Positions 19,897 to 39,008 of a DNA stretch of 64,000 nt are shown piece after piece (the stretch's first letter is position 1; the number at the start of each line of letters is the position of its first letter). A program made the position numbers and the translations under genes. Source of the stretch: Paenibacillus sp. R14(2021) (GTDB lineage: Bacteria; Bacillota; Bacilli; Paenibacillales; Paenibacillaceae). The DNA is taken from NCBI RefSeq assembly GCF_019431355.1, contig NZ_CP080269.1, forward strand, positions 2,480,001-2,544,000, given 5' to 3'. Under the pieces are notes generated by a model, which worked only from the letters and a program-made list of their open reading frames with translations, ran no database searches and was not told the origin of the DNA.

Positions 19897-21192
19897 TTAC
19901 TCATCGTTGCCGATTCCTTGATAGAAATACCCCATGTCCCGCATAAGGCGGGCATCCAGCAAATTTCGTCCGTCAAAGAAATTAGGCTGGTCAAGGATAT
20001 TCTTCATATGACCCCAATCCGTCTGCGCGAATTCAGTCCATTCCGTACACAGCAGTACGGCTTCTGCGCTGCTTAATGCTTCTTCCACGCTGGTGCAGAC
20101 ATGAACGGCGCTGTACGCCGCTCCCTTCGGCAGTGCAGCAATCGGATCGTACAAACGAACTTGTGCGCCTTCGAGCAGCAGCTGCTCCATCACGCGTAAC
20201 GCCGGCGCTTCCCTGATGTCGTCCGTATCCGGCTTGAAGGCAAGCCCCAGAACCGCGATGGACTTGTTCGTGAAGCTTCCGAGACGCGCCCGCGCTTTGC
20301 CCAGCAAATAAGCGAACTGCGTGCGGTTAACTTCCATGACTTGTTCCAATATATGAAGCTCCACATTATTTTTGTGAGCGGTATTTACAAGCGCCGATAC
20401 GTCTTTTGGAAAACAGGATCCCCCGTAGCCAAGACCGGCATGGAGAAAGTTCGCGCCGATCCGATGATCGAGACCCATGCCTGCGGCAACTTCCTTAACA
20501 TTGACGGCAAGCTCGTCGCAGAGCTTGGCAAGCTCGTTCATATAGGAAATCTTCGCAGCCAGGAAAGCGTTGGATGCATATTTGATCAGCTCCGCCGTTC
20601 TTGGCTTCGTGACGACGAACGGACACGCGAATCCGCGGTAGAGCGCCTGAAGCTGTTCCGCTGCCCGGCGGCTGTTTGCCCCGATTACGATCCGATCGGG
20701 ATGCAGGGCGTCCTCGACCGCCTTGCCTTCCCGCAGAAACTCAGGGTTGGACGCGACATCGAACGGATACGCCTCCTGCTGCGCGCCTGCGATCCAAGAC
20801 GTAATCTGCTCTTGCGTGCCCACCGGAACGGTGCTCTTCGTAACGACGAGCTTATACGTCGTCATCAGTCTGCCGATATCCTCAGCCGCCTGCTTGATAT
20901 AACTTAGATCTGCGCTTCCATCCGGCCGCGACGGTGTCCCAACGCAAATAAATATGACGTCATGCGCCGCAATGGCCGCTTTCTTATCCGTCGTGAACAG
21001 CATTCTGCGGCTCTGCACATGTTTGGCGATCAGCTCTTCAAGGCCGGGCTCGTGAAAATGCAGGTTCCCTTTCTTCAGCTGCTCGATCTTGTTGGCATCG
21101 ATATCAAGTCCGGTTACCTGCCATCCTGTTTCGGCAAAAACCATAGCGGTCGTTGCCCCGACATAGCCTGTACCGATGACTAAAATCTTCAT
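19897..21192 (-). CDS. ugd: UDP-glucose 6-dehydrogenase
   Basis: A 431-residue UDP-glucose/GDP-mannose dehydrogenase family enzyme, oxidising UDP-glucose twice to UDP-glucuronate with NAD. The Rossmann start MKILVIGTGYVGATTAM, the pattern FICVGTPSRPDGSADLSYI, ASNPEFLREG, the catalytic Cys in GLGYGGSCFPKD (C260) and the C-terminal lobe VLGLAFKPDTDDIREAPA are all present. Length and spacing match TuaD/Ugd enzymes. It overlaps the nucleotidyltransferase gene by four bases (ATGA), so the two are coupled: the first makes the UDP-sugar, the second makes the uronic acid. Use in spore or cell-surface polysaccharide is inferred from the glycosyltransferase genes that follow across the divergent promoter region. 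Confidence 0.92.
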   Translation of the reverse strand: MKILVIGTGYVGATTAMVFAETGWQVTGLDIDANKIEQLKKGNLHFHEPGLEELIAKHVQSRRMLFTTDKKAAIAAHDVIFICVGTPSRPDGSADLSYIKQAAEDIGRLMTTYKLVVTKSTVPVGTQEQITSWIAGAQQEAYPFDVASNPEFLREGKAVEDALHPDRIVIGANSRRAAEQLQALYRGFACPFVVTKPRTAELIKYASNAFLAAKISYMNELAKLCDELAVNVKEVAAGMGLDHRIGANFLHAGLGYGGSCFPKDVSALVNTAHKNNVELHILEQVMEVNRTQFAYLLGKARARLGSFTNKSIAVLGLAFKPDTDDIREAPALRVMEQLLLEGAQVRLYDPIAALPKGAAYSAVHVCTSVEEALSSAEAVLLCTEWTEFAQTDWGHMKNILDQPNFFDGRNLLDARLMRDMGYFYQGIGNDE

Positions 21193-22181
21193 ACATCCTT
21201 CACCTCTCCATGAGTAAACACGCCGGCAATAATGGAATGACTGCCAATAATCACATTTCTAAGCGGAGATGGCAGATTCTCTAGATGAACGCCATTCAGA
21301 ACGATGCTGTCCGCAATCCGGCAATTCATCAGCTTGGCCTCCGCGCCGATGGACACGTAAGGGCCGATATGGCAATTCTTCAATACGCTGTTCTTGTCAA
21401 TTGCAACTGGCTGGGTAATGGTGCAATTCTCCAGCACCACCGATTCGTGAATCCGGTTCCCCTGCGCTTCTTCGCCCAGCAGCCGCTCGTTAGCCTGCAG
21501 CCAGCGATCCATCGTGCCGACGTCCAAGTTCAGCTGATCGGTGACATGGTACGTCACGACATGCCCATGATCAATCAAACACTGAATCGCATCGGTAATT
21601 TCGTACTCGCCCCGCTTGGATGGCCGGATGCGATGAACCGCATGAAAGATTTCCGGCGTGAACGCATAGGCGCCTAAGACCGCCAGCTTGGACTTCGGAA
21701 TCGCCGGCTTCTCTTCCAAGCCGACAATGCGAGATTCCCGTATTTCCGCGATGCCGTAATCCTTCGGAGCCGCGACCTCCGCGAGCAGCAATGATGCTTG
21801 TACACCGCCAAGCTCGATATCCCGCTTCAATGCCGTCAAAGGCGCGGATATCAAATTATCGCCAAGCAGCAATAGAAATGCTTCTTCTGCAATAAAAGCC
21901 TGCGCTTGCTTCACGGCATCGGCAATCCCCTTCGGTTCATGCTGATAGATGTACGTGATCGCGACGCCAAGCGCTTCTCCCTCACCGAAATGCGACCGAA
22001 TATCGGACTCCTGGGAAGGATGGATGACAATGCCGACCTCACGGATTCCCTGCTCCAATAATTTGACGATCGATAGCTGCAGCAAGGGCGTGTTTGCAAC
22101 AGGAATTAGCGTTTTCGGCCGATTGCGCGTAAATGGATATAATCGGCTTCCTTTCCCTGCACAGAGTATTAATCCCTTCAA
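21189..22181 (-). CDS. Sugar-1-phosphate nucleotidylyltransferase (long RmlA/GalU-like form)
   Basis: A 330-residue enzyme with the nucleotide-binding signature MKGLILCAGKGSRLYPFTRN and PKTLIPVANTPLL, then GIADAVKQA and LLLLGDNLI (metal-binding Asp), VGLEEKP, and GEYEITDAI. After about residue 235 hexapeptide-like repeats (ESVVLENCTI, NSVLKNCHIG, PYVSIGAEA) form a left-handed beta helix, as in the long thymidylyltransferase-like group. It couples a nucleoside triphosphate with a hexose 1-phosphate. Whether UTP or dTTP is preferred cannot be read; the coupled ugd gene favours UDP-glucose. The start is TTG at 22181, with GGGGAGAGAGG upstream. Confidence 0.85.
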   Translation of the reverse strand: MKGLILCAGKGSRLYPFTRNRPKTLIPVANTPLLQLSIVKLLEQGIREVGIVIHPSQESDIRSHFGEGEALGVAITYIYQHEPKGIADAVKQAQAFIAEEAFLLLLGDNLISAPLTALKRDIELGGVQASLLLAEVAAPKDYGIAEIRESRIVGLEEKPAIPKSKLAVLGAYAFTPEIFHAVHRIRPSKRGEYEITDAIQCLIDHGHVVTYHVTDQLNLDVGTMDRWLQANERLLGEEAQGNRIHESVVLENCTITQPVAIDKNSVLKNCHIGPYVSIGAEAKLMNCRIADSIVLNGVHLENLPSPLRNVIIGSHSIIAGVFTHGEVKDV

Positions 22182-22394
22182 AGCCTCTCTCCCCTCTCCA
22201 TTAACTGCTATTATTCTATGAAAATAGCTTTCTATTGGTATAGGCCAAGTACGGATAACGTATAAATATACTTTTATACGGATAGACGAAGCACCCTACG
22301 AATATGATGAAAGCGCCGTGTCCTGCACAGATGTCCATACATATCCTACATAGAATGCCTATTGAAGATATCGACCTAAGGAGCTGTGAGACGA
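22182..22394. promoter_or_regulatory. Divergent promoter region between the two sugar gene sets
   Basis: An AT-rich segment (22215-22290) with an inverted repeat CGTATAA...TTATACG (22259-22281) lies between the minus-strand nucleotidyltransferase and the plus-strand glycosyltransferase. CATATCCTA at 22340-22348 fits the sigma-K -10 pattern CATAnnnTA for the plus strand but no good -35 is at the right distance, so the factor is open. Confidence 0.35.
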
Positions 22395-23435
22395 TTGAAA
22401 ATTGTTCAGATATCAACTAATACGATCACTGTCCCGCCGAAGAAATACGGGGGCACACAGCGAGACGTTCATTATTTGACGGAGGAATTGGTAAAGCGCG
22501 GCCATGAGGTTATCCTATTCGCGAAGAAAGGATCAACCTGCAAGGCGACCCAGCTGTTCGAATATGAATCTAACGACCGCTCGAAGCAGCTTGATTTCAT
22601 CATCAAGAACATGCCGGACGACGTGGACATCATCCATGACCATTACGGCATCGTCGCCAAGACCAATCCGCCCATCCCCACGATCCATCAATCCCATTCC
22701 AAAACCATCCGCAGCGGAGCCGTGCAAATTCCGGTCTACGTAAGCAAGTTCATTCTGCGCAAATACGGCAAAAAACGGGGCTACGCCGTCTACAACGGCA
22801 TCCGCCTCGAAGACTACACGTTCAGCAAAACCAAGAAAAACTATCTCTTGTTCCTCGGCCGGCTAATCAAGGAGAAGGGCGTTCATGTCGCGATCCAGGT
22901 GGCCAAGAAAACAGGGAAGAAGCTCATTATCGCAGGCACGATGAACGACAAATCGTACTATCGGGCCAAAATCAAACCGCATCTCGGCAAAAAAATTCGC
23001 TACGTCGGCGCCGTCGGCGGACAGCGCAAGCGCGAGCTGCTAGCCAATGCCAGCTGCGTGCTGTTCACGTCGGTCTGGGATGAACCGTTCGGACTCGTCC
23101 TGGTCGAGTCGCTGGCAAGCGGCACTCCGGTGCTCGGCTTTCGCAAAAGCGGTGTAGCCGAGGTGCTCAAGGGCTTGCCCCAGCTGACGTGCAGCAATAC
23201 GAACAACATGATCGCGAAGGTCAGGTCGCGCAAACGATTTCCGAGTGCGCACAAATGCCGGCGATATGTCAGAAACCGTTTCACGGATATCATTATGACC
23301 AATGAGTTTCTAAAGCTCTACAACAAGATCCTGAGAAAAAACTTGTACAAAATCAAAAAAAATTCCGTTTGGAATAATCGAAAGGCACAGCTAGAGTCCA
23401 AGTCCTCTTTGAATGGAGATGAGCAATTCTCATGA
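22395..23435 (+). CDS. GT4-family glycosyltransferase
   Basis: A 346-residue GT-B fold retaining glycosyltransferase. The N-terminal acceptor domain starts KIVQISTNTITVPPKKYGG and contains DIIHDHYG; the donor domain shows LLFLGRLIKEKGVHVAI, KLIIAGTMND and the family E-x7-E motif EPFGLVLVESLASGTPVLGF. The C-terminal tail is unusually basic (KILRKNLYKIKKN). TTG at 22395 is preferred as start because AAGGAG at 22378-22383 is 11 bases away; a GTG at 22386 is only 2 bases from that site. It overlaps the next gene by four bases. Probably adds a sugar from an NDP donor to a surface polymer; donor and acceptor are not predictable. Confidence 0.85.
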   Translation: MKIVQISTNTITVPPKKYGGTQRDVHYLTEELVKRGHEVILFAKKGSTCKATQLFEYESNDRSKQLDFIIKNMPDDVDIIHDHYGIVAKTNPPIPTIHQSHSKTIRSGAVQIPVYVSKFILRKYGKKRGYAVYNGIRLEDYTFSKTKKNYLLFLGRLIKEKGVHVAIQVAKKTGKKLIIAGTMNDKSYYRAKIKPHLGKKIRYVGAVGGQRKRELLANASCVLFTSVWDEPFGLVLVESLASGTPVLGFRKSGVAEVLKGLPQLTCSNTNNMIAKVRSRKRFPSAHKCRRYVRNRFTDIIMTNEFLKLYNKILRKNLYKIKKNSVWNNRKAQLESKSSLNGDEQFS

Positions 23436-24121
23436 TTACCGTTATTGCATGTACGATGAGACCCGCATATATCGACAATGTCTTCGATAACTATGACCGG
23501 CAGCTGTGGAAGGATAAACAGATGATCATCGTTCTGAACAATGACAAAATGGATATCGAGCAGTACCAGCTGCGGGCGGCCCAATATCCGGAGAACGAAG
23601 TCAGAGTGTTCCAGCTGCCACAGCGGTATAGGCTGGGCAAATGCATGAACTTTGCCATCGCTCAAGCCGCGAACGGCATCATTGCCAAGTTCGATGACGA
23701 CGATTATTATGGACCTAAATATTTGCGGGAAGCCGGCCGGGCCATCAAACGCGGCAGAGCTGCTATAGTCGGCAAACATACCTCCTATATTTACTTTACA
23801 TCGAAAAGAACGCTGATGATCTTTCGCCGCGGTAAAGAATGGAAATATCAGCGCAGCATTAAAGGAGGCACGCTGGTCTTTCGGCGGTCGGTTTGGAACC
23901 GGGTCAAATTTTCGGAATTCAGGCGTGCCGGGTCGGATTCCAGCTGGGTGGGAAGATGCGTTCGGAGAGGATATCGCGTCCTTTCCTTATCCAAGAGGCA
24001 TTATGTTTGCATCCGCAGAAAGAACTCAAGCAGCCATACACAAAGAAAGAGCACGCGGCTCTATATGTCCCACTGCAAATTTGTTCGCAGAACAAATAAT
24101 TTCAAACGTTATGTAAAATAA
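23432..24121 (+). CDS. GT2-like glycosyltransferase (short)
   Basis: A 229-residue GT-A fold protein. It opens with the donor strand MITVIACTMRPAYIDNV, then DRQLWKDKQMIIVLNND and the metal site IIAKFDDDDYYGPKYL. It is shorter than most GT2 enzymes and has a very basic C-terminal half (RRGYRVLSLSKRHYVCIRRK). The product of 25633-26451 is a clear paralogue, sharing IAKFDDDDYY and the arrangement of basic residues after it. It is coupled to the preceding GT4 gene by an ATGA overlap, so both act in the same pathway. Processing of a nucleotide sugar supplied by the neighbouring dehydrogenases is inferred. Confidence 0.8.
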   Translation: MITVIACTMRPAYIDNVFDNYDRQLWKDKQMIIVLNNDKMDIEQYQLRAAQYPENEVRVFQLPQRYRLGKCMNFAIAQAANGIIAKFDDDDYYGPKYLREAGRAIKRGRAAIVGKHTSYIYFTSKRTLMIFRRGKEWKYQRSIKGGTLVFRRSVWNRVKFSEFRRAGSDSSWVGRCVRRGYRVLSLSKRHYVCIRRKNSSSHTQRKSTRLYMSHCKFVRRTNNFKRYVK

Positions 24122-24146
24122 TGCCCGGCTTGAACAGGAACCGTTC

Positions 24147-24176
24147 AAGGTCAACCCGATGTCGCGAGTTGACCTT
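24147..24176. terminator. Hairpin between convergent genes
   Basis: AAGGTCAAC / GTTGACCTT, a perfect 9-base stem with a 12-base loop, between the converging GT2 gene and dehydrogenase gene. No T-run follows, so it is a weak terminator call. Confidence 0.45.
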
Positions 24177-24193
24177 AGCGCCTTATTGCCGGC

Positions 24194-25516
24194 TCACTGC
24201 ACCGGGCGCGCTCCGTTCCCTAGCGTAACCAGCTTCGCGCCGGGCCGCAGCGCGGTGATGGCATTGCGCGTGTCGTAGACAAAGGAAGCGTGATCGGCGA
24301 TCAGCCGGATCGGCAGGGAGCTGTGATGCGTAAGGATCACCAGGCAATCCGCGACCTCCAGCGATTCCGCCGTAAGCTCGGCACGCTCCAGTTCGCTCCC
24401 GTCCGTCAGCCGGATTTTCGCAAGATACGGATCGGAATAGCCGACATCGGCGCCTTGCTCCCTGAGCGCTTCGATAATCGCGATCGCGGTTGACTCCCGG
24501 ACGTCGGCGATATTCTGCTTATACGTCACGCCGTACACGACAATTCGTGCGTCTCGGAGGGATTTCCCTTCGGGCAGATGCTTCCGAATCTCTTCCACCA
24601 AATAAGCAGGCATGCCATCATTAATGTGCTGGGCGATCTCGATGAAGCGGCTCGTTTGGCCCGACTGGGCAGCTTTCCACTGGAGGTAGAACGGATCCAC
24701 AGGAATGCAGTGCCCGCCTACGCCGGGACCGGGGTAGAAGGCGCTGAAGCCGTAGGGCTTGCTCGCGGCAGCGGCAATGATTTCCCATGCGTTTAAGCCA
24801 AGATGATCGCAAAGCATCGCCATTTCATTGATGAACGAGATGTTAATGAAGCGATACGTATTCTCGAGCAGCTTCATTGTCTCTGCGGCTGCCGTCGAAG
24901 ACACCGGGATCACGGTCTCGAACACGCTCCGATAGATCGACTGAACCCGCTCCAAGCAGGCTTCCGTTACGCCGCTGACGATTTTCGCGATCTGATGGAA
25001 GCTAATGCTTCGGTTGCCGGGATCAATGCGCTCAGGGGAATACGCCAGATAGAAATCGCGGCCGGCCTTCCTGTCTTCCCCCTCCAGCAGCGGCTGCACC
25101 TGTTCCGTGGTCGTCCCCGGGTAGGTCGAACTCTCGACAATCACAAGCTGACCGGGCTGCAAATGAGCGGATAGGCGACGGCAGGCGTCGAGCAGAAAGC
25201 CCAAATCCGGCGTATGGTCCGGCGCGAGCGGCGTCGGCACGCAAATAATGATCGTCCCCGCCTTGGCTGCATCGGCATAATGTCCGGTGATCATCAGTAT
25301 TCCTTCCGCCAAGCAGCTGCCGAGCTCCTGATCGGAAACGTCCTGAACATGACTTCTCCCGGCACGAAGCGATTCAAGCTTGCGCGGGTCAGTATCGATG
25401 CCGACAACGCGGTACCCCTTCGCAATGAAATTCATGGCAAGCGGCAATCCAACGTAACCAAGACCAATGATGCCAACTGTCCGCGCCTTCTCCGTATCCT
25501 GGCTAAACGCTACCAT
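24194..25516 (-). CDS. UDP-N-acetyl-hexosamine 6-dehydrogenase (WecC/TviB-like)
   Basis: A 440-residue nucleotide sugar dehydrogenase of the group that oxidises UDP-N-acetylmannosamine or UDP-N-acetylglucosamine to the uronic acid. Seen are TVGIIGLGYVGLPLAMNF, IIICVPTPLAPDHTPDL, VIVESSTYPGTTTEQV, LAYSPERIDPGN, KLLENTYRFINISFINE and the catalytic Cys C270 in PGVGGHCIPVDPFYL. The VPTPL and PGVGGHCIP forms distinguish this group from the UDP-glucose enzyme at 19897-21192. Start at 25516 has GGAAGGAG 8 bases ahead. TAAGATATG at 25552-25560 reads CATATCTTA on the coding strand, a sigma-K -10 match, but no -35 is evident. Which epimer is the substrate cannot be decided. Confidence 0.87.
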   Translation of the reverse strand: MVAFSQDTEKARTVGIIGLGYVGLPLAMNFIAKGYRVVGIDTDPRKLESLRAGRSHVQDVSDQELGSCLAEGILMITGHYADAAKAGTIIICVPTPLAPDHTPDLGFLLDACRRLSAHLQPGQLVIVESSTYPGTTTEQVQPLLEGEDRKAGRDFYLAYSPERIDPGNRSISFHQIAKIVSGVTEACLERVQSIYRSVFETVIPVSSTAAAETMKLLENTYRFINISFINEMAMLCDHLGLNAWEIIAAAASKPYGFSAFYPGPGVGGHCIPVDPFYLQWKAAQSGQTSRFIEIAQHINDGMPAYLVEEIRKHLPEGKSLRDARIVVYGVTYKQNIADVRESTAIAIIEALREQGADVGYSDPYLAKIRLTDGSELERAELTAESLEVADCLVILTHHSSLPIRLIADHASFVYDTRNAITALRPGAKLVTLGNGARPVQ

Positions 25517-25632
25517 TTTGTTGTCTCCTTCCAAAGCACAGCTCACTTCTATAAGATATGAATCTTGCTTCCAGCCGGCACAGGCTTATAGCCTGGATCA
25601 CATTTACTATTTTCATGAGGAGGGCGATACTT

Positions 25633-26451
25633 ATGATACTCAATTCGGGCACAGGCGTTTCCATCATTACCGCAACGATCCGTAAGAATCGTATGTTCGA
25701 TATTTTCCAAAACTATCAGCGCCAGCAGTGGGCGGCCAAAGAACTAATCGTGATCGTGAACGACAACAGCATCGATCTGGCTCCCTATCAAGCGCTCGCG
25801 GCGCAGTATGATCATGTTCGCATCTTCCGCGTGGATGAAAGCAAGAATCTCGGTGCTTGCCTCAATTACGGTGTTGCCCGCGCGCGCTATGGCTGCATTG
25901 CTAAATTCGATGACGACGACTATTACTCGCCCTGCTACCTTGATGAAGCCATGCTCCTCTTCACCAAGACGAACGCGGACATCATCGGCAAACGCTCCTG
26001 CTACTTCTTCTTCCCGCACCGCTCGGTCCTGCTGCTGCGCAAGACGACCGTAAAACCCTATGGACGCTGCAACCGCATTGCCGGCGCAACCATTATGTTC
26101 CGCAAGCGCGTCTTCAAGAAGGTCGCCTTCAACACGAAGCTTCCGTTCGGAACCGATGCTCGGTTCGTTCAAACCAGCATGCGCAAAGGGTTCAAGGTCT
26201 ACACAAGCTCCTCCTATAACTTCGCCGCTTACCGCCGCGCGAACCGAAAGTCGCATACGTGGAAAGTATCCGAGCAGCAGCTGCTCGCGTCGAAAGGCGC
26301 CACGATCATTTTCACGCCGGATTTCAAAACGCATGTGGACCGGACCTTGGAGCAGCTGCCTCTCCCTGCCCGCCTAAAGACTGCACCAGCGAAAGCAGTG
26401 AGTAACATTTACCCCGGACACAGCAAGACCGTTTTCCCTCCATCCCGCTGA
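25633..26451 (+). CDS. GT2-like glycosyltransferase
   Basis: A 272-residue GT-A fold enzyme, paralogue of the 23432-24121 product. The fold signature is VSIITATIRKNRMFDIFQNY, then KELIVIVNDNSID, LGACLNYGVARARYG and the metal site IAKFDDDDYYSPCYL; GATIMFRKRVFKKVAFN and TDARFVQTSMRKGFKV follow. The start MILNSGTGVS at 25633 has AGGAGG 10 bases ahead, whereas the longer frame lacks a site. It is divergent from the dehydrogenase gene and converges on the ATP-grasp gene with only three bases between stops. The tail is basic and Pro-rich. Donor and acceptor are unknown. Confidence 0.82.
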   Translation: MILNSGTGVSIITATIRKNRMFDIFQNYQRQQWAAKELIVIVNDNSIDLAPYQALAAQYDHVRIFRVDESKNLGACLNYGVARARYGCIAKFDDDDYYSPCYLDEAMLLFTKTNADIIGKRSCYFFFPHRSVLLLRKTTVKPYGRCNRIAGATIMFRKRVFKKVAFNTKLPFGTDARFVQTSMRKGFKVYTSSSYNFAAYRRANRKSHTWKVSEQQLLASKGATIIFTPDFKTHVDRTLEQLPLPARLKTAPAKAVSNIYPGHSKTVFPPSR

Positions 26452-26454
26452 CTG

Positions 26455-27189
26455 CTATTTACCGGGATAGGCTTTGGCATACCGCATGATCCGCCGGAAC
26501 ACCTTGGGATCTTTATGCTTCCTGAAGATATAAGGGTCTGGTCTCGTATTAACTTCGAGTATCCAAGGATGCATCGTTTTGTCCATCGCAATATCAAGGC
26601 CGATCTCATAGACGCCGGGGAAAGCGGTCTGCATCGCTTTGCCTGCCTGCGCACCGAGCTTCGACAGGGCAAGCAGCTTCGCTGCGACTTGATCTGTATT
26701 GGAGCGGAGCAGGACATCCGCCGACACGATTTTGCCGCCGCTGTGGTAGTTCGTGACGATCTTGTTCTTGGCTGCGACTCTTCCGATAATGCCTGTCGTT
26801 TCCCAGGATCTGCCCGGCGCGAATTGAACCATGACCCGGATGTCGAACCGCCTGCCTTCGTATTCGAGCAGATGAATCCCCTTCTGCACAAGATACCTTC
26901 TGCCTCTTGTTTGACGAAGAATGGATTGATAGAGCGAGGCGAACTGATCGAACCTACGAATCTTTTTCCCGACTTGATAGTTGTAGCCTTCGCCCGAACG
27001 CTCGACCCGTATGACACCGTTGCCGTATGTTCCGCGATCGGGCTTGACGTAGACCATGCCATGTCGCTGCAATAGTTGAGAGAGCGATGCCCCTGTCATC
27101 TTCAAGGTTTCTGGCACATACTGGGCCAAGAGAGCGTTTCGCTCGATTGCGGCTGTTTTTCTCCATTTACTCCCTACATAACGCGACAT
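26455..27189 (-). CDS. YheC/YheD-type ATP-grasp protein (spore coat-associated family)
   Basis: A 244-residue ATP-grasp enzyme of the YheC/YheD group, several members of which are linked to the Bacillus endospore coat. Visible are VYVKPDRGTYGNGVIRVE (nucleotide-binding Lys and Gly-rich loop), YLVQKGIHLLEYEGRRFDIR, the IGLDIAMDKTMHPWILEVNT segment carrying metal-binding acids, and TRPDPYIFRK. The protein is shorter than YheC and YheD, which have an extra N-terminal domain. ATP-grasp ligases join a carboxylate to an amine or thiol through an acyl phosphate. The neighbouring dehydrogenases make uronic acids, so amidation of a polysaccharide carboxylate is a plausible but untested role. It follows the GT4 gene by 12 bases, one operon; AAGGGGG precedes the ATG. 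Confidence 0.8.
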   Translation of the reverse strand: MSRYVGSKWRKTAAIERNALLAQYVPETLKMTGASLSQLLQRHGMVYVKPDRGTYGNGVIRVERSGEGYNYQVGKKIRRFDQFASLYQSILRQTRGRRYLVQKGIHLLEYEGRRFDIRVMVQFAPGRSWETTGIIGRVAAKNKIVTNYHSGGKIVSADVLLRSNTDQVAAKLLALSKLGAQAGKAMQTAFPGVYEIGLDIAMDKTMHPWILEVNTRPDPYIFRKHKDPKVFRRIMRYAKAYPGK

Positions 27190-27201
27190 AGGAACCCCCT
27201 T

Positions 27202-28293
27202 CTACTTCAGTTCTCCTTGATAGATCTCCATGAGCCTCGCGGCGGTCAGTTTCCAGCTGAACCGATTCCTTGCATCTTCCCTGGCTTGGGCGGATAACCG
27301 GCTGCAGAGCTCCGGATCCTTCGCCAGCTTGACGATTTGGGAAGCAAAGGCGGCCGGCTTGCCGTAGGTGTCGACGAGCAGCCCGTTGCGTCCATGATGG
27401 ACGATCTCCGGTATGCCGCCGATTCTCGAAGCAATGACGGGCAGTCCGCTGGCCATTGCTTCCACGTTGACGAGTCCGAATGCTTCATGCTTCTGCGACG
27501 GACAAACGAAGCAATCGCCAGAGCGATAAAACTTAGGCATCTGCGTGCGGGATAGATTGCCCTTGAAAGAAACGGGGACCTTAAGCATGCGCGCGGTCCT
27601 CTCTAAATAGGCTTTGTAGGCCGGCTTGGTTGAACCTCCGGCGATGGACAGCTGAAGCGAGGGTACGGATTTGCGCGCAAGCTTGAACGCCTTTAACAGG
27701 GTAGGGACCCCTTTTCTCGGGATGAGTCTACCCGCGAACAGCAGATGCAGCGAGCCGGAGGAGGTTCGTTTGGCCGGACTGAATTTCGTCGTATCGACGC
27801 CCAAATGAACGAATTTGATTTTGCCGCTATGCGCCGGAAAACGCCGAATCAACGAATTTTGCAGCGACATGCTGTTGCCGACGATGACATCCGCCCCCAT
27901 CATGTCGCTATTCGCTTTGCGCGTCGTTGTCATCGGACTTGAGACAAAGGTCATTGAATGCATAAACAGGGAGATCGGCGTACCCGGGAATGCACGTCTA
28001 ACCGCGTTGACGAAGCTCGGTCTGTTGTCGATCTGGATCATATCGTAGCTGTTCCCTCTCACCTTCTGCAGCACATTCTTCAAATAAGCCTGCTTTGAGC
28101 CGCCGGACACTCGCTGGATGACGACGTTGTTCATGACGGATTCGCGAGGCAAATTCTTTCGGAGCAGGCTTACAACCGTAACCTGATGCTCGCTTGAAAT
28201 TCGCTTTGTGATTTGATAGATGCAGCTCTCCACAGAACCGCTTCTCGGCGGCGGTACGGGAATTTGCTCAGGTGCAATAATCAGCAGTCTCAT
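27202..28293 (-). CDS. GT4-family glycosyltransferase, CotSA-like
   Basis: A 363-residue GT-B enzyme. It begins MRLLIIAPEQIPVPPPRSGS, has YDMIQIDNRPSFV, the donor-site segment LLFAGRLIPRKGVPTLL and the E-x7-E motif EAFGLVNVEAMASGLPVIAS followed by GGIPEIVHHGRNGLLV. The opening and order of motifs resemble CotSA and YtcC of Bacillus spore coats. The start at 28293 has GGGAG 7 bases ahead; the longest frame begins 48 codons upstream in a non-coding segment. It is the first gene of a two-gene operon with the ATP-grasp gene, and an imperfect sigma-K-like promoter precedes it. Link to the spore is supported by context, not proven. Confidence 0.82.
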   Translation of the reverse strand: MRLLIIAPEQIPVPPPRSGSVESCIYQITKRISSEHQVTVVSLLRKNLPRESVMNNVVIQRVSGGSKQAYLKNVLQKVRGNSYDMIQIDNRPSFVNAVRRAFPGTPISLFMHSMTFVSSPMTTTRKANSDMMGADVIVGNSMSLQNSLIRRFPAHSGKIKFVHLGVDTTKFSPAKRTSSGSLHLLFAGRLIPRKGVPTLLKAFKLARKSVPSLQLSIAGGSTKPAYKAYLERTARMLKVPVSFKGNLSRTQMPKFYRSGDCFVCPSQKHEAFGLVNVEAMASGLPVIASRIGGIPEIVHHGRNGLLVDTYGKPAAFASQIVKLAKDPELCSRLSAQAREDARNRFSWKLTAARLMEIYQGELK

Positions 28294-28329
28294 TCCATGC
28301 TCCCTTCGATCCCTCCAAAACTTGTCATA

Positions 28330-28357
28330 TACTCTATTCAACGATCTAGCGCGTGTT
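28330..28357 (-). promoter_or_regulatory. Tentative sigma-K-like promoter before the CotSA-like gene
   Basis: On the minus strand AACA, a 15-base spacer and AATAGAGTA match the sigma-K consensus (mACm, about 16, CATAnnnTA) except at the first base of the -10. Such short motifs occur by chance; the genomic context raises the odds. Confidence 0.3.
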
Positions 28358-28383
28358 GCTAGGCTGCTATCAATAGAAGACAT

Positions 28384-28423
28384 AAAAACAGATGGCCCCC
28401 GACAAGTCGGAGGCCATCTGTTT
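28384..28423 (-). terminator. Intrinsic terminator of the sensor kinase gene
   Basis: AACAGATGGCC..CCGAC / GTCGG..GGCCATCTGTT with one mismatch, a 2-base loop and TTTTT on the minus strand, 35 bases after the kinase stop codon. Confidence 0.88.
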
Positions 28424-28458: not shown

Positions 28459-30210
28459 TTAAAAAGGAATTTTAATAATGAATGCGATTTTATCCGCGGT
28501 ATGAATGTCCAGGGAGATAAAGCCCTTGTATTTATCGACAATCGATTTGACGATATGCAGCCCGAGACCGGAATGGCTGTTATTCTTCGACGAATAGCCG
28601 GCTTTAAACAACGGCTTGCCCTTCAATTCTTCGATACGGAAGCACGTATTGCTGATTGAGAATTGGAAGTAACCCGCTTTATGGCTTGCTGCGATATGAA
28701 CGCGGCGATCGCCTTCCTCATGCGTCATCACTTCGTCAAAGGCATTATCGATCAAATTGCCGAGCAGCCTCGTCATGTCCAGCGACTTAATGCCGAGCTC
28801 CAGCCGGTTGATCTCGCTGAATTCGCAGGTGAAATCCACCTTCAATACTTCCGCCTGCAGCATTTTGGACCGGATCAGCGCCGCGATGGCCGGATCGCCG
28901 ATGTTGATAATATCGTTCATCTGACGAATTTCGCCGGTGAGTTCCGAGGCATATGCTTTCAGCTCCTCCGTCTTGCCGAGCTCCGCGAGGGAATGGATCG
29001 TCTGCACATGGTTCATGAAATCATGCCGCTGCGCCCGAATCGATTGGAAGAGTCCATTGATTTCATCCAGGTACGTTTCCTGCGCCTTGCGTACAAGCTT
29101 ATCTTGCGATTTGCGATAGGAAGTAACGACCCAATAGAGAAAGATCAGACTAAGCACGGTTACCCCGGTCATAATGAAGGCAATGTTCCTAAACTGCATA
29201 TCCAGCGCTTGCTGCACCGTACTGTAATCGGCGACCACAGACAATACATAGCGCTGAATCGGCTGGCCTTCCCCATCAAGCATGCTCTTGGCTGTATCGC
29301 TTACATCGACGGGCAGAAACAGCTTGATGACGTGCTTGCCGTTAATAACGGCGTCCTGGTACACCTTCTCGTTCGTACTCACGGCCAGCTTCACATTCTT
29401 CCCGTCGTGCGCGTGCTTGAATGTATAGCTGCCGTACGAAATCGGGCTTTGCGTCATATGACTCAGCTGCTCGCCGTTCTCCGTAATGGTCAGATGCTCA
29501 CCGTCCTCGAAGGTCGCCGGATTGATGATCGTAATTTCTTGAAGTGACTGATTCTCGGCTAACGTCTCGTTAATCAATCTTGTTACGCCCGTACTCTGAT
29601 CGTAATCCAGCTGCCTGCTGGCATAGCTTATGTATGGATCGATTAAATAATTGGTAGAACCGTCGTAATAATAGCCCCACTTGTGAATCTTATCCGTGGT
29701 CGTCGAGGAGAATTCGAAAGGGCCTGTCCAGAAATTGGTCAAGCTCTGTCCCCAATTGACCGTGACCTGTTTATCGTCGAACAATTGATTAAAGGCGGTG
29801 TACCATGGATTCCAGCTGTTCGTCCGGTAGCCGGACCGTTCCTTGGGATCCGACGATTTATACAGCACAATGCTGTCCGTCGTCCGCTTCAGCAGCGTAA
29901 TATCCACAAGCTCAAGCTTCTTGGCCAGTTCTTCAAGCTGGCTGTTCGTTACCTTCTCGACATCCGGATTTAATGCGTATTGCGAGGCGATGGAAGCGGC
30001 GCGCAGTTCCCGCCCGATCTCTTCTTGGTATTTCTCCGATCCGCGGCGCGAGACTTCGATCGAGACGCCGATTTGCTTCGCCGCGGTTTCAAGCTCATGC
30101 TGAAGACTGACTTCGAGCGAATGTTTGGTCGTCACATAATAAATCGTGTTGTTCACGCCTAAAAGCAAAGCAATTAAAATAATAACCAACAGCCAAACTT
30201 TACGACGCAT
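28459..30210 (-). CDS. Membrane sensor kinase with SpoOB-type histidine box, no partner regulator
   Basis: A 583-residue sensor kinase. A first membrane helix (about 4-22), a long extracytoplasmic region of about 310 residues that looks like a double Cache sensor (TNSWNPWYTAFNQLF, then KWGYYYDGSTNYLIDPY), and a second helix (about 345-365) precede the kinase core. The phospho-acceptor box QRHDFMNHVQTIHSLAE is of the SpoOB/CitA type; the ATPase part shows LLGNLIDNAFDEV (N box) and SGLGLHIVKSIVDKYKG. Such kinases normally pair with CitT-type regulators for small ligands, but none lies next to it. Start at 30210 has GGAG 12 bases ahead; a TTG 13 codons upstream lacks a site. Confidence 0.8.
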   Translation of the reverse strand: MRRKVWLLVIILIALLLGVNNTIYYVTTKHSLEVSLQHELETAAKQIGVSIEVSRRGSEKYQEEIGRELRAASIASQYALNPDVEKVTNSQLEELAKKLELVDITLLKRTTDSIVLYKSSDPKERSGYRTNSWNPWYTAFNQLFDDKQVTVNWGQSLTNFWTGPFEFSSTTTDKIHKWGYYYDGSTNYLIDPYISYASRQLDYDQSTGVTRLINETLAENQSLQEITIINPATFEDGEHLTITENGEQLSHMTQSPISYGSYTFKHAHDGKNVKLAVSTNEKVYQDAVINGKHVIKLFLPVDVSDTAKSMLDGEGQPIQRYVLSVVADYSTVQQALDMQFRNIAFIMTGVTVLSLIFLYWVVTSYRKSQDKLVRKAQETYLDEINGLFQSIRAQRHDFMNHVQTIHSLAELGKTEELKAYASELTGEIRQMNDIINIGDPAIAALIRSKMLQAEVLKVDFTCEFSEINRLELGIKSLDMTRLLGNLIDNAFDEVMTHEEGDRRVHIAASHKAGYFQFSISNTCFRIEELKGKPLFKAGYSSKNNSHSGLGLHIVKSIVDKYKGFISLDIHTADKIAFIIKIPF

Positions 30211-30359
30211 TTCCCTGGACGCTCCGATCAAATTCCGAATTTTACACAAGCTTCGCAGATAAAGTCAACCTGCAAAGCTCCTATAATTATGAACGATTTT
30301 TGATAGAGTGACAATGAGAGAATTGAACAATACTGGCAAGAATCATATAAAGAAAGCGA

Positions 30360-34775: not shown

Positions 34776-34997
34776 TCAAATTTTTAATTCCCCAAGCTTT
34801 ATAAGCTCGACAACCGCTTGTGAACGACCTTTTACGTTTAATTTCTGCATAACATTAGAAATATGGTTCCGAACGGTCTTCTCACTGATGAACAGCTGCT
34901 GCGCTATATCACGCGTTGTTTTGTCCTGTACCAGCAGTTCGAATACCTCGCGTTCACGATGAGTTAATAAGAACTTGCTCTTCTGGTCGCTACCCAT
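34776..34997 (-). CDS. gerE: GerE, late mother-cell sporulation regulator
   Basis: A 73-residue LuxR/GerE-type DNA-binding protein, almost the same length and sequence as GerE of Bacillus subtilis (74 residues). LLTHREREVFELLVQDKTT, then IAQQLFISEKTVRNHISNVM and VKGRSQAVVELIKLGEL form the four-helix domain. GerE acts with sigma-K in the mother cell to switch spore coat and crust genes on or off. AAGGAGGGG precedes the ATG, and a sigma-K-type promoter lies 67 bases upstream. Its presence proves an endospore-forming host and makes spore roles for nearby surface genes more likely. Confidence 0.95.
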   Translation of the reverse strand: MGSDQKSKFLLTHREREVFELLVQDKTTRDIAQQLFISEKTVRNHISNVMQKLNVKGRSQAVVELIKLGELKI

Positions 34998-37775: not shown

Positions 37776-37806
37776 GTCATATTTTTCCTATTTCTGTACA
37801 TATTCT
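37776..37806 (+). promoter_or_regulatory. Sigma-E-like promoter of the RCC1-repeat gene
   Basis: GTCATATT (perfect sigma-E -35), a 15-base spacer and CATATTCT (five of eight against CATACAAT). The start would fall near 37813, very close to the ribosome site GGAG at 37820-37823. The -10 also fits the sigma-K form CATAnnnTA, though without a matching -35. Confidence 0.5.
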
Positions 37807-37829
37807 AGTCAAACATCAGGAGTGAACTT

Positions 37830-39008
37830 ATGCGAACGATCAAAAGAACAGGTCTGCTTGTACTAATGCTTATCTTCGCAACATCCCTATTGGCAAATCT
37901 ATTATATGCAGAGGCGGTAAACCCCGTTAAGAAAATGATTGCCGGAGGCGGTCGTAGTCTTATTCTGCTGCAGGACGGCACGCTCGTGATAAGAGGCGGA
38001 GGATTTCTTGAGCATTACGATAAACATGGCTTTGGCGTGCTTAGTAACGGGAATAGCAACTGGAAGGATATAACGGCTTCGGGAAGTGCGATATATGGCA
38101 TAAAAAATGACGGGACGATGTGGGCATCAGGATTTAACGATGTCGGGCAATTAGGAACTGGCGATACGGATACGGGCCAAAAAATGAGACAAATCGGGAA
38201 GAACAAGAAATGGAAAATAGTAACGAGCGAATATGCCCATGCGGCGGCAATTGCCGAAGACGGCTCCTTATGGACATGGGGGCTGAACGGTGGAGGTCAG
38301 ATTGGCGACGGCACGTTAACGAACAGACATGTCCCGACGAGGGTAGGTACTGCTACAGATTGGATAGAAGTATATACCGGAACCTGGAATACCGTAGCTG
38401 TGAAGCGCGATGGAAGCGTATGGGCCTGGGGGAATACTTGGGCCAGCATAATAAATGCAGAATATGCTACAAAGGGTAAAAAGGCTGTAACGAAGCCGCT
38501 CAAAATAGTGGATAAACTGAATTACAAAAAAATGTCCATCGGCTCGCAAGATACCATGTTCATCAAGAAAGACGGCACTTTGTGGGGCTGGGGATACGAT
38601 TATAAGCGCAGCGCCTATAATCTTACTAGAATAAGCAATGAGAAATGGAAGGACGTTGCAGTCGGATCTTCGGAATTCGGAAGACCTAGCTATGCGATCA
38701 AGGAAGACGGCACATTATGGACCATTACAAAGCAAAGCATGGAAAAAAAGCAAGCAGGTGTTACTCGTAGCGTGCTTTCTGGGGTACAAATCAAAAGCAT
38801 CTCTACGGATCATGATTGGAAGGCGCTTGCAGAGCAGCCGGATAGCAGCAATAATATGATCTTTATGAAACAAAATGGAAAGCTTTACGGCCTAGGTTTT
38901 AATAGTAGTGGGGAATTGGATGAACCAAGAGCAAATAAACCGTTTAAAGAGCTTTCTGTAATCGGAGAACTGACTGCCATTAATAACTATTACATTCAAA
39001 GCAAGTAA
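37830..39008 (+). CDS. Secreted RCC1-repeat beta-propeller protein
   Basis: A 392-residue exported protein. The N-terminus RTIKRTGLLVLMLIFATSLL with a cleavage site around YAEA/VNP is a signal peptide. The mature part carries RCC1-type blades, each with a kDGTlwawG core: NDGTMWASGFNDVGQLGTGD, EDGSLWTWGLNGGGQIGDG, RDGSVWAWGN, KDGTLWGWGYD, EDGTLWTI and a last QNGKLYGLGFNSSGEL, giving about seven blades. RCC1 propellers bind proteins or, in some bacteria, cell-wall and host factors. GGAG stands 8 bases ahead of the ATG. A sigma-E-like promoter and sporulation neighbours suggest expression in the mother cell. Bases are more AT-rich than in the surrounding genes, a hint of transfer. Confidence 0.8.
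   Translation: MRTIKRTGLLVLMLIFATSLLANLLYAEAVNPVKKMIAGGGRSLILLQDGTLVIRGGGFLEHYDKHGFGVLSNGNSNWKDITASGSAIYGIKNDGTMWASGFNDVGQLGTGDTDTGQKMRQIGKNKKWKIVTSEYAHAAAIAEDGSLWTWGLNGGGQIGDGTLTNRHVPTRVGTATDWIEVYTGTWNTVAVKRDGSVWAWGNTWASIINAEYATKGKKAVTKPLKIVDKLNYKKMSIGSQDTMFIKKDGTLWGWGYDYKRSAYNLTRISNEKWKDVAVGSSEFGRPSYAIKEDGTLWTITKQSMEKKQAGVTRSVLSGVQIKSISTDHDWKALAEQPDSSNNMIFMKQNGKLYGLGFNSSGELDEPRANKPFKELSVIGELTAINNYYIQSK

Follow-up and report, generated by a model that had tools for sequence, protein, structure and literature searches.

The 64,000-nucleotide stretch of the Paenibacillus sp. R14(2021) genome analysed here (NZ_CP080269.1, one contig of 5.98 Mb, positions 2,480,001 to 2,544,000; hereafter the window) carries eight genes for the activation and transfer of sugars at window positions 19897-28293. 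Four of these, in two divergent pairs, form the core of what is probably a sporulation cassette. On the minus strand, a gene for a sugar-1-phosphate nucleotidyltransferase (NTP; 21189-22181) precedes one for an enzyme of the UDP-glucose 6-dehydrogenase type (UGD; 19897-21192), while the plus strand carries a family 4 glycosyltransferase gene (GT4a; 22386-23435) followed by a family 2 glycosyltransferase gene (GT2a; 23432-24121). NTP resembles RmlA-long and AglF-like enzymes, matching PF00483 and, with 293 bits under a cut-off of 320, TIGR01208; it has a left-handed β-helix tail, and its nucleotide would be UTP or dTTP. UGD matches PF03721/PF00984/PF03720 and TIGR03026 (474 bits), scores 481 bits with the TuaD model, which is under that model's cut-off, has the catalytic loop GYGGSCFPKD, and is similar to UDP-glucose dehydrogenases in the PDB. 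GT4a matches PF00534/PF13692 with the motif EPFGLVLVE, and its conserved start is probably the TTG at 22395. GT2a matches PF00535 and carries FDDDDYY.

Beyond the core lie a UDP-N-acetylhexosamine-type dehydrogenase gene (UgdB; 24194-25516, minus strand; TIGR03026, motif GVGGHCIPVDP), a further family 2 glycosyltransferase gene (GT2b; 25633-26451, plus strand; PF00535), a YheC/D-type ATP-grasp ligase gene (26455-27189, minus strand) and another family 4 glycosyltransferase gene (GT4b; 27202-28293, minus strand; PF00534 at 139 bits, motif EAFGLVNVE), which ends 12 bp before the YheC/D gene. The nearest PDB chains to UgdB are the UDP-ManNAcA dehydrogenase 4r16 and Cap5O, and its NCBIfam scores are under the equivalog cut-offs; motif and nearest chains agree in pointing to an N-acetylhexosamine substrate. 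GT2b is 36% identical to GT2a and has the same FDDDDYY, and an E-x7-E motif is found in both GT4a and GT4b. The match of YheC/D to PF14398 (190 bits) spans residues 5-239 of 244 and so covers its full length. The catalytic-motif assignments, including GYGGSCFPKD for UDP-glucose dehydrogenases and GVGGHCIPVDP for N-acetylhexosamine dehydrogenases, follow the usual reading of these families. By sequence, the transcription units are NTP-UGD (minus strand), GT4a-GT2a (plus), UgdB (minus), GT2b (plus) and GT4b-YheC/D (minus). All eight genes and their families had been listed in an earlier, sequence-only reading of the region, and Pfam and NCBIfam profiles confirm that list, as they do the tight coupling it described, seen in the 4-bp ATGA overlaps of NTP/UGD and GT4a/GT2a. 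Its remark that the locus lacks a flippase, a polymerase and an ABC exporter also holds: no gene for any of these, nor for an initiating transferase, turned up in the locus or among those neighbours that were annotated.

The core, NTP-UGD // GT4a-GT2a, recurs in the same divergent layout in 10/10 chromosomal loci, one in each of the carriers G000 (the source genome), G002, G003, G005, G007, G014, G015 (P. glycinis), G021, G041 (P. kobensis) and G051. P. glycinis and P. sacheonensis are the nearest named relatives found for the source genome. Among the core carriers the glycosyltransferase proteins are 64-79% identical, and GT4a orthologues at syntenic loci 70-78%.

By the letters of the sigma-K consensus (AC at -35, CATAnnnTA at -10) and of the GerE box, the 204-base gap that separates NTP from GT4a holds a predicted sigma-K promoter of NTP-UGD at 22212-22245 (minus strand), of the form GCCTA-TACC-N16-CATAGAATA, in which a GerE-like box GCCTA abuts the -35. 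Its -10, CATAGAATA (22212-22220), is invariant at 8/9 positions in the ten genomes, and a plasmid copy of the core in P. urinalis has CATAGAGTA at the equivalent position. When read with a 5-base -35 and a 10-base -10, the same promoter becomes ATACC-N15-TCATAGAATA, and a 15-base gap between elements of these lengths is the sigma-K optimum (Eichenberger et al., PMC517825). The gerE gene, found in the same window, is preceded by a predicted promoter of similar layout, GCACC-N15-TCATATGATA, which serves as an internal comparison. Facing the other way, the predicted promoter of GT4a-GT2a (22315-22364, plus strand) consists of a GCCGTG element, a -10, CATATCCTA (22340-22348), that lies 25 bases after the beginning of this element, and a downstream GCCTAT box. 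We see that mean column identity over the ten genomes reaches 0.99 for the -10 CATAGAATA, 0.98 for the -10 CATATCCTA and 0.97 for the NTP -35 and its adjoining GCCTA box, compared to 0.73 for the entire gap. With the exception of the 5' leader before the Shine-Dalgarno sequence, the promoter elements of NTP and GT4a are the most conserved 9-base windows of the gap.

CATAnnnTA boxes had been reported before three of the units, and they are found at 22212-22220 (minus strand), 22340-22348 (plus) and 25552-25560 (minus). Across the window such sites are as frequent as expected by chance (16 observed, 15.9 in shuffles), so their number proves nothing, and it is position and conservation that are informative. 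A rough density estimate predicts about 0.07 correctly oriented sites for the three upstream gaps together, against the 3 found there, and conservation across species is a stronger argument for the promoters than this count.

A second line of evidence comes from the distribution of the genes. SpoIVA is present in 13/13 core or partial-core carriers tested, and GT2a has no match in three SpoIVA-less genomes of a genus of the same family (G027, G045 and G058). YheC/D matches in these genomes number four, three and zero, respectively, and are weak at best (best E 1.8e-14); there are 13 in the source genome and about ten in most other relatives. The earlier assignment of the locus to the spore surface is therefore supported, both by sigma-K-type promoters conserved over ten genomes and by the absence of the glycosyltransferase genes from the SpoIVA-less sister genus.

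Several observations weigh against a link to late sporulation. A strict GerE-box/sigma-K pattern had 2 sites genome-wide, compared with 1 when the control was reversed, and yielded no regulon. At the GT4a promoter a good -10 is accompanied by no clear AC at -35, and to our knowledge its GCCGTG element matches no known site. At the level of the phylum, the association of GT2a with SpoIVA is uninformative: 14/14 carriers sporulate, as do 330/398 sampled genomes (83%), and a result of 14/14 would arise by chance with a probability of about 0.07 against this background, which we do not take as proof. GT2a-like proteins with 30-36% identity also appear in Citrobacter and Nonomuraea records, so the glycosyltransferase family is not specific to spores.

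Gene families, catalytic motifs, synteny and conserved promoter sequences can be read directly, and from these we infer control, substrates, acceptor and site. We consider it likely that the core is a late-sporulation mother-cell glycosylation cassette transcribed by RNA polymerase with sigma-K, GerE probably having a modulating part. Because its late-sporulation promoters are so deeply conserved, we propose that the cassette very probably adds acidic sugars to the surface of the spore. Sigma-K would switch on the core late in sporulation, in the mother cell, with GerE modulating the response. NTP would supply activated glucose, most likely UDP-glucose, and UGD would oxidise UDP-glucose to UDP-glucuronate, being a copy reserved for sporulation in a genome that has other dehydrogenases too. 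GT4a and GT2a, usually with GT2b, would then move sugars onto a coat or crust acceptor in the mother-cell cytoplasm during coat assembly, and that acceptor would come to bear an acidic glycan, either short or repeated. Since the surface of the acceptor is turned towards the cytoplasm of the mother cell, an exporter would be unneeded. In the three genomes that have it, UgdB would add a second acidic donor, of the N-acetylhexosaminuronic type. GT4b and YheC/D would act as a separate unit, often alongside the core, and the YheC/D ligase, to guess by its ATP-grasp fold, might attach an amino acid or a peptide, with the glycan or a coat protein as target. A polymer had been envisaged for this locus, and the genes seem to suit short glycans on coat proteins equally well.

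It is also conceivable, if on balance unlikely, that the genes are sporulation-specific and modify small molecules or single protein sites, with one sugar added per glycosyltransferase and an amino acid by YheC/D. Such a role would fit glycosyltransferases that are short and lack an accompanying polymerase, and modules that shuffle, with lone glycosyltransferases elsewhere under the same promoter. However, a dedicated NTP-UGD supply of nucleotide sugar suggests bulk demand, and the glycan layer that the analogues in Bacillus affect is a visible one (PMC7439481).

The genes beside the core are less constant than the core itself. GT2b follows it in 8/10 loci (only a short remnant is left in G007), UgdB stands between GT2a and GT2b in 3/10 (G000, G015 and G021), GT4b adjoins the core in 5/10 (G000, G002, G007, G014 and G041) and YheC/D in 4/10 (G000, G005, G015 and G021). 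We therefore think it improbable that all eight genes are one functional locus making one heteropolymer of glucuronate and an amino-sugar uronate. All are adjacent here, and 7/8 occur in the same order in P. glycinis (L009), but the counts above speak against a single locus, as do a separate GT2b'//UgdB' pair at 1.125 Mb in the source genome and, in P. sacheonensis (L010), a GT4b-YheC/D unit that stands without the core. Since modules also occur apart, the window locus is best seen as a local assembly of separable modules around a constant core of four genes; the sequence-only reading had treated the eight as one set and two kinds of uronic-acid supply as its property, neither of which survives the search of relatives.

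Further paralogues in the source genome are a GT4a'-GT2a' pair at 1.618 Mb and GT2a'' at 0.703 Mb. An IS110-family transposase adjoins the GT4a'-GT2a' pair (L071 8187-9134; about 1.616 Mb in the source genome), which fits a spread by mobile elements. In G003, G014, G002 and G007 the genes flanking the cassette are unrelated to those of the source genome, so the cassette moves, and proximity to gerE is unlikely to be a conserved link: gerE does lie at 34776-34997, near the locus as claimed earlier, and carries little weight. A 62-kb plasmid of P. urinalis (L083, NZ_CP118103.1, 9455-14757) has the NTP-UGD // GT4a-GT2a core with a PIG-L deacetylase. This plasmid, from a human blood source, also bears a mercury-resistance operon and, about 2-3 kb from the core, a gene for a collagen-like protein; a repeat scan of the loci for collagen-like targets gave none that was convincing, this annotated one being on the plasmid. 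Three more distant genomes (L075-L077) have NTP-UGD // GT2a without GT4a. In one of these (L077 12889-15835; G009), genes for an alginate-lyase-family protein, a hexapeptide acyltransferase and a BKACE-family enzyme stand beside NTP-UGD//GT2a, and their products may modify or trim the same glycan. Judged by synteny, the cassette is mobile and modular, and its eight genes do not make up a fixed set.

Least probable, and in our view very doubtful, is a vegetative locus for a capsule, teichuronic acid or a secondary cell-wall polymer, with spore genes nearby by accident: UGD resembles TuaD, and UgdB resembles Cap5O and UDP-ManNAc dehydrogenases, both from capsule or wall pathways, yet the cluster has none of the flippase, polymerase, initiating transferase or exporter genes, its sigma-K-type promoters are conserved whereas sigma-70-like sites are at chance level, and other UGD-type genes elsewhere in the source genome could cover vegetative needs.

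The proposed sporulation cassette has close counterparts in Bacillus. Under sigma-K, the same enzyme types build the spore-surface glycans of B. subtilis (PMC2860764, PMC7439481, PMC517825), and in Bacillus it is the mother cell that makes the spore glycans, which become attached to proteins of the coat and crust (PMC11708026). The B. subtilis-type cluster ytdA, ytcA, ytcB, cotSA, ytcC, cotS, ytaA was described in 2009, with a gene order that varies between species and with cotS-ytaA under sigma-K/GerE control (PMC2860764). It too has a nucleotidyltransferase adjoining a UDP-glucose dehydrogenase, together with GT4 enzymes, CotSA and YtcC, of which the two here are candidate counterparts; its link to sigma-K/GerE would be shared as well, to judge by the conserved, matching promoter sequences here. 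Unlike it, the Paenibacillus locus has an NTP that is RmlA-long-like and not COG1210, no ytcB epimerase, two short family 2 glycosyltransferases and an optional N-acetylhexosamine-type dehydrogenase. That study found no genome with the kinases but without these glycosyltransferases, nor the reverse (PMC2860764). There is no CotS/YtaA kinase in the present cluster, and TIGR02906 has no match over its cut-off in the source genome and exceeds it in 1/10 core carriers (G051). The idea shared with the Bacillus cluster is a nucleotide-sugar supply joined to spore glycosyltransferases, and the Paenibacillus glycosyltransferases appear to be different. No paper on a Paenibacillus spore glycan was found by literature search, and the claim that the set had not been described as one locus stands for this exact set within the literature searched, with the closely analogous Bacillus locus as its qualification.

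The B. subtilis sps, yfnHGFED and cgeAB-cgeCDE crust genes likewise combine mother-cell family 2 glycosyltransferases with nucleotide-sugar genes for spore-surface glycans (PMC7439481, PMC11708026), but no legionaminic-acid or rhamnose genes are among the eight Paenibacillus genes. SpsA has solved structures (PMC7439481), yet GT2a has no sequence match among PDB chains at E <0.01, and its structure prediction (mean predicted local distance difference test score 48.6) was discarded. The YheC/YheD spore proteins of B. subtilis (PMC7911427, PMC517825), encoded by sigma-E genes helped by SpoIIID (PMC517825), share the family name and the PF14398 domain with the ligase here, whereas in Paenibacillus the gene comes after GT4b, with a conserved promoter of another kind, and its genome has 13 matches, this one included. 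A likeness outside spores is to the Haloferax-type AglF-AglM pair, both NCBIfam models of which match NTP and UGD. AglF and AglM are a UTP-glucose-1-phosphate uridylyltransferase and a UDP-glucose dehydrogenase that supply UDP-glucuronate in two steps for protein glycosylation. That system serves archaeal N-glycosylation, the Paenibacillus scores lie under the equivalog cut-offs, and no orthology is claimed.

Spore-surface sugars influence the sticking and wetting of spores, and knowledge of them rests mostly on a handful of species of Bacillus. With a conserved gene set now defined and its candidate promoters mapped, spore glycan synthesis in Paenibacillaceae becomes directly testable. Such sets reshuffle, can drop GT4b and yet keep its promoter, and can travel on plasmids.

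The GCCGTG element recurs 5' of GT4a', GT2a'' and paralogues in P. glycinis and P. sacheonensis, and three more distant genomes carry it as GCCGTTTCT. Genome-wide, GCCGT-N(19,20)-CATAnnnTA has 7 sites, of which 3 are directly 5' of GT4a, GT4a' and GT2a''; one further site with exact spacing lies within a coding region, and the pattern is not enriched (7 sites vs 14 in reversed controls). As a speculation to which we give little credence, the glycosyltransferase units might be joined by this private element, set at a fixed distance from a sigma-K -10, through an undescribed late-sporulation activator that binds it, in a cassette that is mobile, plasmid-borne and duplicating and to whose glycan YheC/D ligases add amino acids.

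Promoters outside the core are conserved to differing degrees. The predicted CATAnnnTA-type -10 of UgdB, CATATCTTA (25552-25560, minus strand), is only partly conserved, reading CATAGATTA in P. glycinis and CATAG--TT in G021. A region before GT4b (28300-28375, minus strand), with GCCTA-nCAACA and, about 14 bases further on, GAATAG, is kept in seven genomes. In P. glycinis, G021 and G005, which have no GT4b there, this sequence stands 5' of the YheC/D gene (L009 9720-10030, L066 6260-6602 and L069 6090-6424), most simply explained if GT4b was deleted and its promoter kept, or captured, by YheC/D. Sigma-70 and terminator scans of the region were at chance level, with the sole exception of a strong 17-bp hairpin with a T-rich tail (28386-28423, minus strand) between GT4b and a sensor kinase gene, which is probably a terminator insulating GT4b-YheC/D. 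This DcuS/MalK-like kinase (28459-30249; SPOB_a and GHKL domains) has GT4b and a TPR protein gene as neighbours and no adjoining response regulator gene. At 36-43 kb of the window lie a YhcN/YlaJ lipoprotein gene and a gerA-type operon, and between them a gene for an RCC1-repeat protein (37830-39008), 23 bases 5' of which ends the sequence CATATTCTA (37799-37807); this gene is possibly another sporulation gene.

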